Shown here: in pieces, positions 5,056-9,774 of the stretch | How positions within the stretch are numbered: the stretch's first letter is position 1 | Layout: every line of letters starts with the position of its first letter | Assembly (NCBI GenBank): GCA_017302435.1 | Contig: JAFLDL010000014.1 | Location: 31,264-95,263 of the forward strand | Direction of reading: 5' to 3' | Source: Candidatus Accumulibacter necessarius | GTDB taxonomy: Bacteria > Pseudomonadota > Gammaproteobacteria > Burkholderiales > Rhodocyclaceae | DNA: 64,000 nt | Translations under genes and position numbers: made by a program | The notes under the pieces: generated by a model | Told to the model about the DNA's origin: nothing | The model's database searches: none | The model's input: the letters and a program-made list of their open reading frames with translations, nothing else

Positions 5056-5065
5056 CCCGATCAGG
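5056..5065. repeat. Left 10-bp target duplication of the ISAs1-type element (CCCGATCAGG)
   Basis: The same 10 bases occur at 9358-9367, directly outside the opposite end of the element. Target duplications of 8-10 bp are usual for ISAs1-family elements. Confidence 0.82.
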
Positions 5066-6482
5066 CAGGGTGGATTTGTCCTTCTGGTCAATAGTTAAAG
5101 AATCCGTGGGTTAGGTGCCGGCTATGGACATCGGGTAAGGGTGTCTGTATAAAGGGCGGATGGAAGCGGAACTGGATGCGTTGCGCGTGCGCCCGATCGA
5201 GAAGAGCGAGGAGGGTCGCTATCGGGAGTTGATGGCGCAACACCACTATCTGGGCGATCTGGCGAAGATCGGCCACACGCTATGGTACGTCGCTACCAGC
5301 GGCGAGGACTGGGCAGCCCTGCTCAGTTTTTCGGCCGCGGCGTGGAAATGTGGGGTTCGGGATCACTGGATCGGGTGGGATTTCCGGCATCAGTATGATC
5401 GTCTGGGGTTGATCGCCAACAATAGCCGTTTTCTGATTCTGCCTGACTGGCACCGCCCGAATCTGGGTTCGAAAGTCCTTTCGCTGTGCCAGGAGAGGAT
5501 CGTCGCGGATTGGCAGGATCGTTTCGGCAAGCGGATCCTCCTGCTCGAGACCTTTGTCGATCCTTCGCGTTTTCAGGGAACGGTCTACCGGGCCGCGAAC
5601 TGGACGTGCCTGGGGCTGACCCAGGGGTTTCGTCGTACCCGTGCCGGGTACACGGCCCACTCGGAGTCCCCCAAGCTGGTTTTCGTCAGGCCGCTGCAGC
5701 GCGATGCGCCAGCCCAGCTTTCGCGCTCGTTTCTCCCCCCCGCCTATGCTCAAGGAGTGCCCCGAATGATGCTCAGCGCCGAACAGATGCGTCTGCTTCC
5801 CGACTTCTTTGCCGCCATCCCGGATCCGCGGCGCGCTCAAGGCAAGCGCCATCCTCTGCCGAGCGTGCTGGCTATGGCGACGGCCGCAACCCTGTGCGGG
5901 ATGCGCGGCTACAAAGCCATCGCCGGTTGGGCGAAAGACCTCAAACCGCGAGCGCGCGAACGCTTTCGCTGTCGTCGCGAGAAGGGGATCTACCGCGTGC
6001 CGAGTGAATTCATCTTTCGTGACGTCTTGATTCGTGTCGATCCGACTGCGCTGGATGAGGCCTGCCGGCAGTGGAACCAAGCGTACGCGCGCGACGACAA
6101 GAGTATGGCCGTGGATGGCAAGACAATGCGCAACGCCAAGGATGAACAGGGGGCGCAAACGCATATCATGAGCGTCGTTGGTCATGAGACTGGCACCTGT
6201 CACACCCAAAAAAAGTCGGCACATTGCCCGTAGAAGACCAGGAAGAAGCCAAGCAAACCAATGAGATCGGAATGTTCATCCCGCTGCTCGACGGCATCGA
6301 CATTCAGGGGAAGGACATCACCGCCGATGCGCTCCTCACGCAGCGCAAGCTGGCCGCGTATGTGGTGAGCCGGGAAGCCCACTACCACTTCACCGTCAAA
6401 GGCAATCAGCCCACCCTGCAGGCCGATATCGCGCTCCTTTTTCAGAATCGACAGGCGTCCGACCAGGTAGTCGTGTCACCCC

Positions 6483-6492
6483 CCTGATCATG
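6483..6492. repeat. Left 10-bp target duplication of the nested IS (CCTGATCATG)
   Basis: This direct repeat recurs at 8866-8875. In the reconstructed ISAs1 frame the sequence encodes the P-D-H of a PDHGRIE segment, which confirms it was target DNA before insertion. Confidence 0.85.
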
Positions 6493-6527
6493 CTGTGGTC
6501 CTTACCCTCACTTGACTCCGTCGCCAC

Positions 6528-8813
6528 TCAAGGCGCTTGGGGGGGCGACAGATAGCCTTCGGGGTAGGAGCGCCAGATTCGAGGCGGAGGTGAGCGGGTG
6601 AAGATGTTGTACATCTGGACGGCCACGTCGAGATGCTGCAGACCCCGCCAGAGCACCTGGGTGCCGGGCGGGCCATCGCGGCGACGTCCGAGGTGGCCAC
6701 CCATCTTCGCCAGCATGCGCACCGCTTGGGCCATGCTGGGGGGTTCATCGGGGGGTAGCGAGGTCTGGTAGTGATAGCAGTGCAGGGCCTTCCATTCCAC
6801 TTCTTCGAAGAAGACAGTGCATGGGTGATCGGGGACCTCGCGCCCGAGCATCGTCAAGTGGTAGATGCGCCACGCCACCACCATGTCGATCCCCAGGCAC
6901 GCCTGCAAACGCGTGGCGGTGCCGAGTTGGCGGTCCTTGATCCGACAGCCGCTCTTCAGGGTGCGGTGGAAGACCTCGATCCCCCAGCGTGCGGCGTACC
7001 ACTCGGCGCGTTCAACGGCATCGTCGAAGGTATGAACCGGCACGCTGGTCAGCAACATCCACTCGATTGGCTCGGGATCGTCAGTGTTCTCTTCGCGTAG
7101 ATGAACCGCCCACAGATCAACCGCCGGCAGGCGACTACCGCGCGGCGGCTGCAGCGTCACTTCGGCGAAGCGCACGGCTAGCACCACCGTACGCGCCGAG
7201 CGGTTGCCCCGCCGGGGAATGCGCAGTGTGATTTCGCCGACGGGCGACTGGCGGCTGATGACGTCCCACAGGGCTTCGTTCTCCACTCGCCGCTGGCGGG
7301 TACGCTCGGCCCGCACCAGCAACTTCGGTCCTGCCGGATCGCGCGCGGCCAGCGCAAACAGATCATGAATGTCCGACTCACGATCACCCATGCTCACCAA
7401 CAGGGTTTCCGGGCACAGCGCCTGGACTTCAGCCACCCGAGCGAAGCTGTTCAGCCACTTCATGCTCTCCTTTTCCTCGATCGGCAGATGCTTTCGCTCC
7501 TCGCTCTTGCCGTGCTCGTCGGGTTCGCGTGCCCAGCACTGGGCGTCGAGGATGCCGAGCGGAGTCCCCTCGACGCTGAACGCCACGGTGTCGTGCAGCA
7601 TCAAGCCGACGGCCTGGTCGCGCGTGGTGTTGACTGGGCCCAGTCCTTCGGTTGCGGGATGATGCGAATAGTTGAGCGTCGTCGTATCCTGCGGGACCAG
7701 GACGATTCGGTGCGCTCGAATGCGCTCGATGGTCGCTTCGATGTGCGGGGTGAGAATCGCTTGCAGGTTCACCTGGCGGTTACGGAGAAAGCGATAAGCG
7801 GCCAGCGTACCGGCGCGCGAAGCGCAGGCTTCGGGTACATTCGCCTGTGGGCGATGGCAGAAGTTGAGCGCAAGGGAAATCAAACGTCGTTTGAGGCGCT
7901 CATCGTACCAGCGAACGGTGGCAAACTCTCCTTCCGCCCAGTTGCTTGCCGGCACACGGGGCGGGGTGTTCAGGCCATCGCGGGGTTTGGCGGACAGCAA
8001 CTCGCGCCATTCGCTGTGCAACGGCAGGAGGAAGATCTGTTTGGCGACCCCATCACGGCGCCCCGAGGTGGTCCCGACGTCGATCCAGTTGGCCGCGCGG
8101 TAGCAGTGGCCGGAAAAGCGCGTCGGATCGACGAAGGTCTCCAGCAACAGCGGTCGCACGCCGTAGCGCGTTTCCCAGTCGGCCGGCAGTCGCCGGCTCG
8201 CGAGTCCAAGCACGTGCGAGGCGAGATTCGGCACCTGCACGCCCGGCCGGATCAGGAAGCGGGCATTCGCCACGACCCGCCGCAGGTTGTGCCGACGCGC
8301 GGCATCCTCCCAGCCAATCGCCTGGTCACGCGCCTTCATGGCCCAACTCGCCGAGGTGAAGGCGAGAGCGCCCAGCCAGCCGTAAGGCTCGCAGCGCACC
8401 AGGTAGCGCAACTGCGCACCACACAGCGGCTGCTCGCCCAGGTAGTGCTCGCGCGCTATCAGTGCGCGCCAGGTTTGTGCTTCCCGACTCCCCGCCTCGA
8501 CGGCAACCAACTCCACGGCACCCAGCGCTGCCAGCGGCCCACTGAGGCGGAGGTCTTCCACTGCCCGCGTGGTCGGTTGGCGTGGCGTGAATCGGGCCCG
8601 GACGGCGGGAAGCTCAATGACCTGGCGCCGCACGAGCTGTGCCAACGCTTTGCGGCAGCCGCCTTCCTGCCAGCCGCCCGTCGCGGTACGCCAATCGAGC
8701 CACTCGCAAACCCGGCGCGACAGCGCCCGACGCGATATCTCCGGCACCGACGTGACGACCTCCCGGATTCGATCCAGAAGGTCAACGGAGAATTCCTGGC
8801 CGCACAGACGCAT
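6528..8813 (-). CDS. IS4-family (Tn5-like) transposase with an N-terminal DUF4338 (DruA-like) domain
   Basis: The 761-residue protein has three parts. Residues 1-95 look like a helical DNA-binding extension. Residues 100-275 are a DUF4338 domain with EHYLG (122-126), ETFVDP (225-230) and YRAANW (238-243). From about 290 a complete Tn5-type transposase follows, beginning WAEGEFATVRWYDERLKRR. Its catalytic motifs are DTTTLNY (first Asp), SMGDRESD (second Asp) and WGIEVFHRTLKSGC (the Y(2)R(3)E(6)K glutamate region). It is intact, so the element may be active. Tn5 transposase alone is 476 residues; the extra 285 or so residues are the fused part. DUF4338 is known from the Druantia phage-defence protein DruA. 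Confidence 0.87.
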   Translation of the reverse strand: MRLCGQEFSVDLLDRIREVVTSVPEISRRALSRRVCEWLDWRTATGGWQEGGCRKALAQLVRRQVIELPAVRARFTPRQPTTRAVEDLRLSGPLAALGAVELVAVEAGSREAQTWRALIAREHYLGEQPLCGAQLRYLVRCEPYGWLGALAFTSASWAMKARDQAIGWEDAARRHNLRRVVANARFLIRPGVQVPNLASHVLGLASRRLPADWETRYGVRPLLLETFVDPTRFSGHCYRAANWIDVGTTSGRRDGVAKQIFLLPLHSEWRELLSAKPRDGLNTPPRVPASNWAEGEFATVRWYDERLKRRLISLALNFCHRPQANVPEACASRAGTLAAYRFLRNRQVNLQAILTPHIEATIERIRAHRIVLVPQDTTTLNYSHHPATEGLGPVNTTRDQAVGLMLHDTVAFSVEGTPLGILDAQCWAREPDEHGKSEERKHLPIEEKESMKWLNSFARVAEVQALCPETLLVSMGDRESDIHDLFALAARDPAGPKLLVRAERTRQRRVENEALWDVISRQSPVGEITLRIPRRGNRSARTVVLAVRFAEVTLQPPRGSRLPAVDLWAVHLREENTDDPEPIEWMLLTSVPVHTFDDAVERAEWYAARWGIEVFHRTLKSGCRIKDRQLGTATRLQACLGIDMVVAWRIYHLTMLGREVPDHPCTVFFEEVEWKALHCYHYQTSLPPDEPPSMAQAVRMLAKMGGHLGRRRDGPPGTQVLWRGLQHLDVAVQMYNIFTRSPPPRIWRSYPEGYLSPPQAP

Positions 8814-8819
8814 GCACAG

Positions 8820-8848
8820 AGCTTAGCGCTCACGGCTAACGGAGTCAA
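8820..8848 (-). promoter_or_regulatory. Promoter inside the right terminal repeat of the nested IS
   Basis: Read on the minus strand, TTGACT (8848-8843) is followed 17 nt later by TAAGCT (8825-8820). The expected start site is near 8813, which is the A of the transposase ATG, so the transcript would be nearly leaderless. The -35 box lies in the inverted repeat, so transposase binding to the end could repress its own gene. Confidence 0.5.
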
Positions 8849-8865
8849 GTGTGTCGGCGGTTCAG

Positions 8866-8875
8866 CCTGATCATG
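8866..8875. repeat. Right 10-bp target duplication of the nested IS (CCTGATCATG)
   Basis: Exact partner of 6483-6492. ISAs1 coding sequence resumes immediately after it (GRIETRRI). Confidence 0.85.
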
Positions 8876-9357
8876 GACGCATCGAAACCCGACGGATTTA
8901 GTGCAGTACCGCGCTAAATTCCTATGTCGATTTCCCGCACGTTGGCCAAGTCTTCCTGATTGAGCGCGAGGTCGTCCACAAGAAAAGCAGGAAGCGAACG
9001 CTCGAAACCGCACTCGGGGTCACGAGTCGCCCTCCCGAACAAGCCGGGCCAAAACGTCTTATCGAAATCAACCGCGGCCACTGGACCATCGAAAACCGTT
9101 GCCACTATGTCATCGACTGGAACTTCGACGAGGACCGGAGCCGCATCCGAACCGGCCACGGTCCCGCGAACCTCTCCCGCCTTCGCCGATTCGCCGTCGG
9201 TATCCTTCACCACTTCTCGGACGGCAAGACCAGCATCACGCAAAAAATGGCCCACCTGAACCGCAACATCCGCTTGGTCTTTGACTATCTGCGGATGACC
9301 ACAAACTCCGTCGGCAACACCAACGCATGAAATCAGCCGGAGAACAAATTTACCGTG

Positions 9358-9367
9358 CCCGATCAGG
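9358..9367. repeat. Right 10-bp target duplication of the ISAs1-type element (CCCGATCAGG)
   Basis: Exact partner of 5056-5065, directly outside the right inverted repeat. Confidence 0.82.
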
Positions 9368-9446: not shown

Positions 9447-9492
9447 CCGGTAACTGAAAGCGGCGCCCGCAGGCGCCGCTTTCAGTTACCGG
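9447..9492 (-). terminator. Long hairpin downstream of rpsT
   Basis: A perfect 21-bp stem (9447-9467 with 9472-9492) closes a 4-nt loop, 13 nt after the rpsT stop. No T-run follows on the rpsT strand, so it may stabilise or end the transcript by another route rather than act as a standard intrinsic terminator. Confidence 0.6.
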
Positions 9493-9504: not shown

Positions 9505-9774
9505 CTAGGACGCGGCCAGGCCCTTGATCTGGGCCGATAGGCGGCTCTTGTGCCGCGCGGCCTTGTTCTTGTGGATGATCTTCTTGTCGGCAATACGGTC
9601 GATCACCGACACCGACTGCAGGTAAATACTCTGGGCCGCAGCCTGGTCGCCAGCCACAATGGCCTTCTGTACACGCTTGACCGCCGTGCGCAGGCTGGAG
9701 CGCAGGCTGGCGTTGTGGGCGCGCTGCTTGACGGCTTGGCGAGCCCGCTTGCGGGCTTGTGCGCTATTGGCCAT
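9505..9774 (-). CDS. rpsT: 30S ribosomal protein S20
   Basis: The 89-residue basic protein starts [18 protein letters not shown] and contains the S20 signature [18 protein letters not shown]20 binds 16S rRNA early in assembly of the small subunit. The length is standard. It stands alone as a single-gene unit between the mobile element and the first porin, as in many proteobacteria. Confidence 0.97.

Follow-up and report, generated by a model that had tools for sequence, protein, structure and literature searches.

Within a 64,000-nucleotide stretch of Candidatus Accumulibacter necessarius DNA (contig JAFLDL010000014.1, positions 31,264 to 95,263; hereafter the window), an insertion sequence of the IS4/Tn5 type lies inside one of the ISAs1 type, and both transposases begin with the same accessory domain, DUF4338 (PF14236), known from DruA of the Druantia defence system. 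We propose that this DruA domain is a GNAT-fold enzyme module, related to Mom of phage Mu and recruited repeatedly by insertion sequences, whose activity we infer; we give this reading about an even chance of being right. The fold, the association with transposases and the mobility of the resulting units are well supported. The chemistry is offered as a hypothesis because several results, gathered below, count against the comparison with Mom.

Two nested insertion sequences share a DruA domain

The two window domains are 42% identical (pairwise E 1e-35), and both score above the PF14236 gathering score of 27 bits, the inner protein with 125.4 bits (E 3.3e-36, residues 100–252) and the outer one as given in Table 1. 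The homology and the nesting described in a first-pass annotation of the window both hold, and each element is flanked by its own 10-bp target duplication. That annotation had raised the possibilities that the fusions were assembly errors and that in relatives the domain has a gene of its own. Many relatives do encode it separately. Intact fusions are nevertheless common, and since both kinds recur in other genomes (21 IS4 fusions including that of the window, and L214, where DruA and ISAs1 form a single open reading frame of 595 residues), an assembly artefact can be ruled out, as can chance similarity. Plain ISAs1 and IS4 transposases mostly lack the domain, as had been stated. Eleven canonical ISAs1 matches each lie in one open frame of 377–407 residues; one copy from genome G249 has an open-frame value of 606 in the same ISAs1 listing. 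None of the 719 plasmid records that match some part of the IS4 fusion contains 80% of it.

The domain is predicted to fold as a GNAT and resembles Mom

A DruA-domain model based on the inner window domain and 80 relatives was predicted by AlphaFold2 with a pLDDT of 94.3. Foldseek against the PDB gave GNATs at probability 1.00 among the matches listed, including SpeG (E 5e-6, TM-score 0.63 by target length). Judging by this model, we are confident that the shared domain folds as a GNAT. Structure prediction had been suggested at first pass as a way to find a DNA-binding surface; the predicted fold of the domain is that of a GNAT enzyme. In the relevant part of PMC10853773, DUF4338 is likewise called a GNAT when fused to DndF.

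Profile comparison points to Mom, annotated as the adenine modification enzyme of phage Mu and represented in the PDB by 8bv8, which is named a methylcarbamoylase. hhalign aligned the DruA and Mom profiles over 179 columns with a probability of 95.7 (E 9e-9); the value was 92.6 with a small alignment and 91.8 (E 7e-7) with other match-column settings. The reversed Mom profile reached 0.2, the best of 40 column-shuffled Moms 1.5 and generic GNATs 0.3, this last control alignment being small and poor (six sequences). PF14236 matches all 81 rows of the DruA alignment A3 at E ≤ 0.01, and at the same threshold the Pfam Mom model (PF25680) matches 24 of them, at best with E 8e-5. All 11 Moms compared have H48, Y49, D139, Y149 and N153; we take these residues to be catalytic, and it is their invariance that was tested here. 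At the equivalent DruA positions, 79 of 81 rows have H, 70 Y, 77 D or E (45 D, 32 E), 80 Y and 78 N. DruA and Mom thus have both profile homology and common invariant residues. Methylcarbamoyl transfer is among the GNAT chemistries listed in an excerpt of PMC8072286.

Several results weigh against this assignment. Mom is not among the 50 matches listed of the 536 PDB matches to the model, which are SpeG-like proteins and other GNATs, 8bv8 being in the PDB; a PDB sequence search with the DruA profile gave one match, at E 0.38. The outer window domain scores 15.9 bits against PF25680, under the Pfam cut-off of 27.1. No Mom match at E ≤ 0.01 was obtained for 57 of the 81 DruA rows, and conversely none of the 11 Moms matches the DruA model. 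The site is not strictly kept: of the 81 rows, 9 have P in place of Y124 and 32 have E in place of D229. Finally, the generic GNAT comparison depends on the six-sequence control alignment.

DruA domains are found with transposases of several families

Species genomes were scanned with the DruA alignment, which gave at least 563 relatives, and the best 80 were fetched. Since the query was built from transposon forms, the sample is skewed towards them. We labelled 101 DruA frames, leaving out duplicate rows of the Accumulibacter genome ACC003 as well as locus L031 (Accumulibacter sp. UW9-POB), in which both window domains are found at 100% identity; families were named from NCBIfam and Pfam matches to representatives. 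Seventy-five of the 101 frames are fused to a same-strand transposase of the IS4, IS66, ISAs1 or ISKra4 families or lie beside one (within 1.2 kb), the best-scoring partner being on the same strand in every case. IS4 partners are fused in 26 frames, beside in 7, and of another IS4 subgroup in a further 2 (beside); IS66 partners are beside in 22 and fused in 1 (L079); ISAs1 partners are fused in 8, with 3 frames beside a separate ISAs1 frame; and ISKra4 partners are beside in 6, two of these rows being one locus. The first-pass claim of two transposase lineages was correct for ISAs1 and IS4 but understated the number of families. No transposase was detected for the other 26 frames, 13 of them no more than 1300 bases from a locus end. 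Among these 26 is L076 (minus strand); it is a copy of a gene that in ACC003 belongs to a multi-copy unit of 2816 bp, together with a PF13808-type transposase not clearly placed in any family.

PF14236 itself was found in 16 of the 274 class genomes and in 16 of the 249 phylum genomes; both counts include the genome of the window. Of 33 such genome matches, 12 and then one more were assigned a transposase, five are full-length Druantia-type proteins and the rest are without assignment.

A few further occurrences were seen. The window's genome has two DruA remnants with no transposase neighbour found (G000:C29:1809-2222, L002; G000:C52:11488-11673, L004). Four large frames of 702–1297 residues each hold two split PF14236 matches: G068:C66 (L017/L024), G303:C50 (L132/L138), G275:C34 (L125/L135) and G335:C1 (L126/L134). 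A search of viral contigs with the full IS4 fusion matched none; in viral contigs L111 and L113, DruA is followed by an IS66-type transposase in an overlapping frame.

The domain has been captured more than once

A tree of 97 domains was calculated by a quick method without bootstrap, leaving 35 of 92 inner branches open. The 11 ISAs1 rows, together with two unassigned rows, form one clade (100*) apart from the IS4 fusions, and four IS4 units with a downstream DruA gene form a clade of their own (99*). IS4 fusions require four changes on the tree, three of them forced by starred branches. When all partner labels are considered, 26 changes are needed against a mean of 59.6 for shuffled labels, and none of 200 shuffles was as low; assigned transposase labels alone need 10 changes, with IS4-fused and IS4-beside as separate states. 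The proposal that the domain is a portable module, acquired separately by different transposases, is borne out by this tree, which had been called for at first pass. With IS66 labels scattered and these inner branches open, the tree gives no order of captures. Four Druantia-type rows form a separate clade (100*) on a long branch; for the first-pass suggestion that DruA may derive from a transposon domain, the tree gives no direction.

DruA and transposase move as units

Multi-copy units with target duplications indicate that the domain travels inside elements. An IS66+DruA element is present in at least 18 copies in Candidatus Accumulibacter ACC003, approximately 93–98% identical to L074 (3850–6577), and 8-bp duplications flank 17 of the 18 copies examined. 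By eye, clean 10-bp duplications were found at two of three ISAs1–DruA copies in G249, and 9-bp duplications at three copies of the 2816-bp unit. In the latter, exemplified by L085 9215–12030, DruA accompanies a transposase of PF13808 type for which no NCBIfam model provides a good name.

Where DruA and transposase occupy separate frames, the genes are tightly spaced. Thirty-one of 38 listed pairs are separated by −4 to +29 nt, 28 by −4 to +3 nt, and 18 show the exact 4-nt start/stop overlap; the chance control gave 13.3% within −4 to +3 nt and 1.6% with 4-nt overlaps. The start codon nearest the stop was chosen, which favours short distances, and the control was matched in this respect. The seven other pairs are three broken ISAs1 copies, the broken IS4 fusion L042, two that represent the same ISKra4 locus, and L078. 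Gene order varies: IS66 comes first in 17 rows and DruA in 5.

Structure of the window elements

The inner element is the sole full copy detected in the window's genome. NCBIfam assigned its protein to IS4_3 (411.8 bits versus a cut-off of 160), and for the whole-protein model (AlphaFold2, pLDDT 84.6, pTM 0.62) the best structural match is Tn5 transposase. Low-confidence stretches at residues 73–82 and 279–286 separate the DruA domain from the N-terminal helices on one side and from the transposase on the other. D376, D477, E613, Y606, R609 and K620, which agree with the DDE and YREK motifs, are invariant across the 21 IS4 fusions of alignment A7, the window's one included and some cut by contig ends. 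By family profile, catalytic residues, ends and target duplication, the inner element belongs to IS4 of the Tn5 type. Its N-terminal helical part (residues 1–72), rather than the GNAT domain, would be the likelier DNA binder; this part is not present in the ISAs1 form.

The outer copy is dead: the inner element splits it, and there is an in-frame stop in what remains of its 3′ part. In its first open reading frame PF14236 is followed by PF13808 at residues 215–305. Because the gene is split, its pieces score 49.4 and 55.5 against the ISAs1 family profile (NF033564; cut-off 70). Related proteins exceed this cut-off, namely the downstream frame of L106 (137.4) and the DruA fusion L214 (229.8), and ends similar to those of the outer element are also present in L106.

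GATCA is common to both window duplications (5056–5065 and 6483–6492), probably by coincidence. It is too weak to use, being absent from the duplications seen for the G249 ISAs1 and ACC003 IS66 copies. Between the outer element and a small open reading frame on the reverse strand (9505–9774), positions 9447–9492 form a perfect inverted repeat of 21 bp with a loop of 4 nt.

Table 1. Features of the nested elements (window coordinates).
Feature	Position	Strand	Details
Outer ISAs1-type element, split by inner element	5066..9357	+	Ends CAGGGTGGATTTGTCC... / ...CAAATTTACCGTG
Left target duplication, outer element	5056..5065	.	CCCGATCAGG, 10 bp
Right target duplication, outer element	9358..9367	.	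CCCGATCAGG
0-frame open reading frame	5160..6233	+	DruA/GNAT domain and N-terminal half of ISAs1 transposase
DruA (PF14236) domain, outer transposase	5196..5630	+	aa 13–157; PF14236 E 5.9e-24, 85.2 bits vs gathering score 27
A_AAA_AAG heptamer	6209..6215	+	In phase for −1 ribosomal frameshift
−1 frame continuation of ISAs1 transposase, cut by inner element	6224..6484	+	Model positions 115–188
3′ remnant of ISAs1 transposase	8876..9330	+	In-frame stop near start
Inner IS4/Tn5-type element	6493..8865	-	2373 bp; both ends start CTG, common CACTTGACTCCGT
Left target duplication, inner element	6483..6492	.	CCTGATCATG, 10 bp
Right target duplication, inner element	8866..8875	.	CCTGATCATG
Intact fusion protein, 761 aa	6528..8813	-	Helical (helix-turn-helix-like) domain, DruA/GNAT domain, Tn5-type transposase
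N-terminal three-helix domain	8598..8813	-	aa 1–72; structure prediction, helix-turn-helix-like by inference
DruA/GNAT domain, inner protein	8022..8516	-	aa 100–264, with H123, Y124, E225, D229, Y238, N242
Tnp_DNA_bind (PF14706)	7770..7943	-	aa 291–348
Tn5 dimerization domain (PF02281)	6615..6881	-	aa 645–733

A candidate programmed frameshift in one ISAs1 sublineage

The 0-frame of the outer gene ends at a stop (6233) shortly after the sequence CAA AAA AAG. Eleven rows of this ISAs1 sublineage were compared; L003 and L031 are both the window copy, leaving 10 distinct copies. The heptamer A_AAA_AAG is in phase at the same codon in eight of the 10 (the window; L013, L021 and L026 of G249; L016 and L023 of G247; L075 and L106 of ACC003), and one A has been lost from it in the other two (L028 and L074). 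L074 and L075 are partial ISAs1 copies with no DruA match of ISAs1 type in the fetched stretch. Six of the eight heptamer copies have a −1 frame that is open to the end of ISAs1. The exceptions are the window, where the inner element cuts this frame, and L021, which breaks later. Canonical ISAs1 genes read in frame through the heptamer place in six cases (L201, L203, L206, L207, L208 and L210); in canonical L202, L204, L205 and L209 the motif at this place was not located by the script.

Simple decay as the cause of the break at 6233 is ruled out by the same heptamer in other copies. The in-phase slippery heptamer in eight of 10 copies, the open −1 frame downstream and the read-through of canonical genes therefore make it likely that this one sublineage uses programmed frameshifting, and the break is probably a programmed −1 site conserved within it. 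A conserved stimulatory RNA fold is too weak to use as support: predicted downstream folds differ among the seven copies folded. The heptamer is absent from other DruA–ISAs1 lineages, Thiodictyon L196 and L214. Uninformative were L122, which has a stop before the site, and L123, L124, L127 and L130, for which there was no row. The ISAs1–DruA copies from Thiodictyon plasmids (L196 and L197, 2447–4208 in both) are broken at a different, later place, giving open reading frames of 444 residues and of 131 residues, the latter a 'hypothetical protein' (frames read in L196).

What the domain may do

Building on the homology, the predicted fold, residue conservation, co-mobility and tight gene spacing, we infer catalysis, a substrate and a benefit. 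The domain would travel with the transposase and be made together with it, having been recruited either as a fusion (IS4/Tn5-type, ISAs1, once IS66) or as a tightly spaced gene (IS66, IS4, ISKra4, others). It would be catalytically active and modify nucleic acid, the most likely substrate being adenines, either of the element's DNA or of DNA that the transposase complex holds. Moving DNA might then be shielded from restriction or other host defence, or recognition of the ends might be controlled; adenine methylation controls Tn5. A more far-reaching version seems to us rather doubtful: that a Mom-like DNA-modifying enzyme is carried by insertion sequences with at least five types of transposase, that it acts in cis at the transposition complex to place an N6-adenine adduct on the DNA of the transposon or the target, and that Druantia DruA branched off from this family of transposon enzymes and degenerated.

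At first pass a role in target recognition had been suggested. A GNAT-fold scaffold that is without catalytic activity and serves to recognize DNA or target sites would suit a domain whose partners are transposases, which adjoins the Tn5-type end-binding domain in the IS4 fusions and which exchanges D for E at position 229 and Y for P at 124. H123, E225, Y238 and N242, however, are kept in 78–81 of 81 rows, beyond the needs of a mere scaffold, and the inner window protein could bind DNA through its separate N-terminal helices. We regard the scaffold as unlikely; because of the GNAT fold and the Mom profile match, an enzymatic role is the better guess. Such an enzyme could instead tune transposition by acylating a protein (the transposase, a nucleoid protein or a host factor), as is usual for GNATs. 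The closest solved folds listed are acetyltransferases of small molecules, proteins and RNA, and the tight spacing to the transposase would fit, but the profile resembles Mom and not the generic GNAT control, weak as this control is, and in our judgement protein acylation is improbable. Many copies per genome, and the use of the domain in Druantia and, according to the part of PMC10853773 concerned, as the variable N-terminus of DndF defence proteins, would agree with a toxin or anti-defence factor that acts on the host, has a target other than the DNA of the element and aids transposon persistence. That 26 IS4 and 8 ISAs1 frames have the domain fused directly to the transposase suggests work at the transposition complex instead, and we consider a host-acting factor very unlikely.

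If the domain is indeed a recruited Mom-like enzyme, a family named only after a defence system would gain a function, and simple insertion sequences in many phyla would carry a dedicated enzymatic partner of the transposase. Some of the genes now labelled DruA would then probably be parts of transposons. Phage Mu DNA modification, transposons and anti-phage defence would be joined in one protein family. Modified adenine would be expected in the DNA of cells expressing the domain, which makes a specific and cheap test possible. In the open-access literature we found nothing that treats DruA together with a transposase, an earlier description elsewhere being possible, and the matches listed for Mom, GNAT and DruA, for passenger genes and for ISAs1 frameshifting contained no such link.

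Comparison with known systems

The DruA domain and Mom of phage Mu (PF25680; 8bv8) match with 92–96% profile probability and have HY, an acidic residue, Y and N at equivalent positions. Mom itself has a GNAT fold, and both are borne by a transposing element. They differ in that DruA scores fall below the curated Mom cut-off where seen, and in the extra N-terminal helical domain and the fusion or close pairing with insertion sequence transposases found here.

Druantia DruA belongs to the same Pfam family, and the N-terminal half of its GNAT region matches the transposon form (96.2%). It is approximately 400 residues long, the type being judged by full-length profile match and not by neighbours, and W-S-x-P and TTS or TTTG replace the HYLG and ETFVD of the transposon form (six sequences, by eye). 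Against the full-length Druantia profile the inner window protein aligned over 50 of 407 positions (E 0.0048) and the outer one gave no match; each of the two window DruA genes is contained in an insertion sequence that has ends and target duplications of its own. At E ≤ 0.01 the PADLOC DruA profile matches 59 of the 81 A3 rows (best 1e-9) and six of six Druantia-type proteins (best 1e-196). The latter show no Mom match (0.1%, six sequences only). Going by its sequence, Druantia's own DruA is a distant relative that lacks the Mom-invariant residues.

The inner element resembles IS4/IS50 (Tn5) in its PF14706, PF02281 and NF033590 matches above cut-off, its catalytic residues and its 10-bp duplication, and differs by approximately 285 extra N-terminal residues (helix-turn-helix-like and DruA/GNAT). 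The outer element matches ISAs1 through PF13808 and NF033564 and through 10-bp duplications, found also at two G249 copies (by eye); the DruA form has approximately 200 extra N-terminal residues, and in one sublineage the gene is split at A_AAA_AAG, whereas canonical ISAs1 is not split. According to an excerpt of PMC3281130 (2012), transframe products had then been reported for IS1 and IS3 only. The candidate site shares with −1 frameshifting in these families an A_AAA_AAG placed between two overlapping frames and conserved across copies, and differs in belonging to an ISAs1 element.

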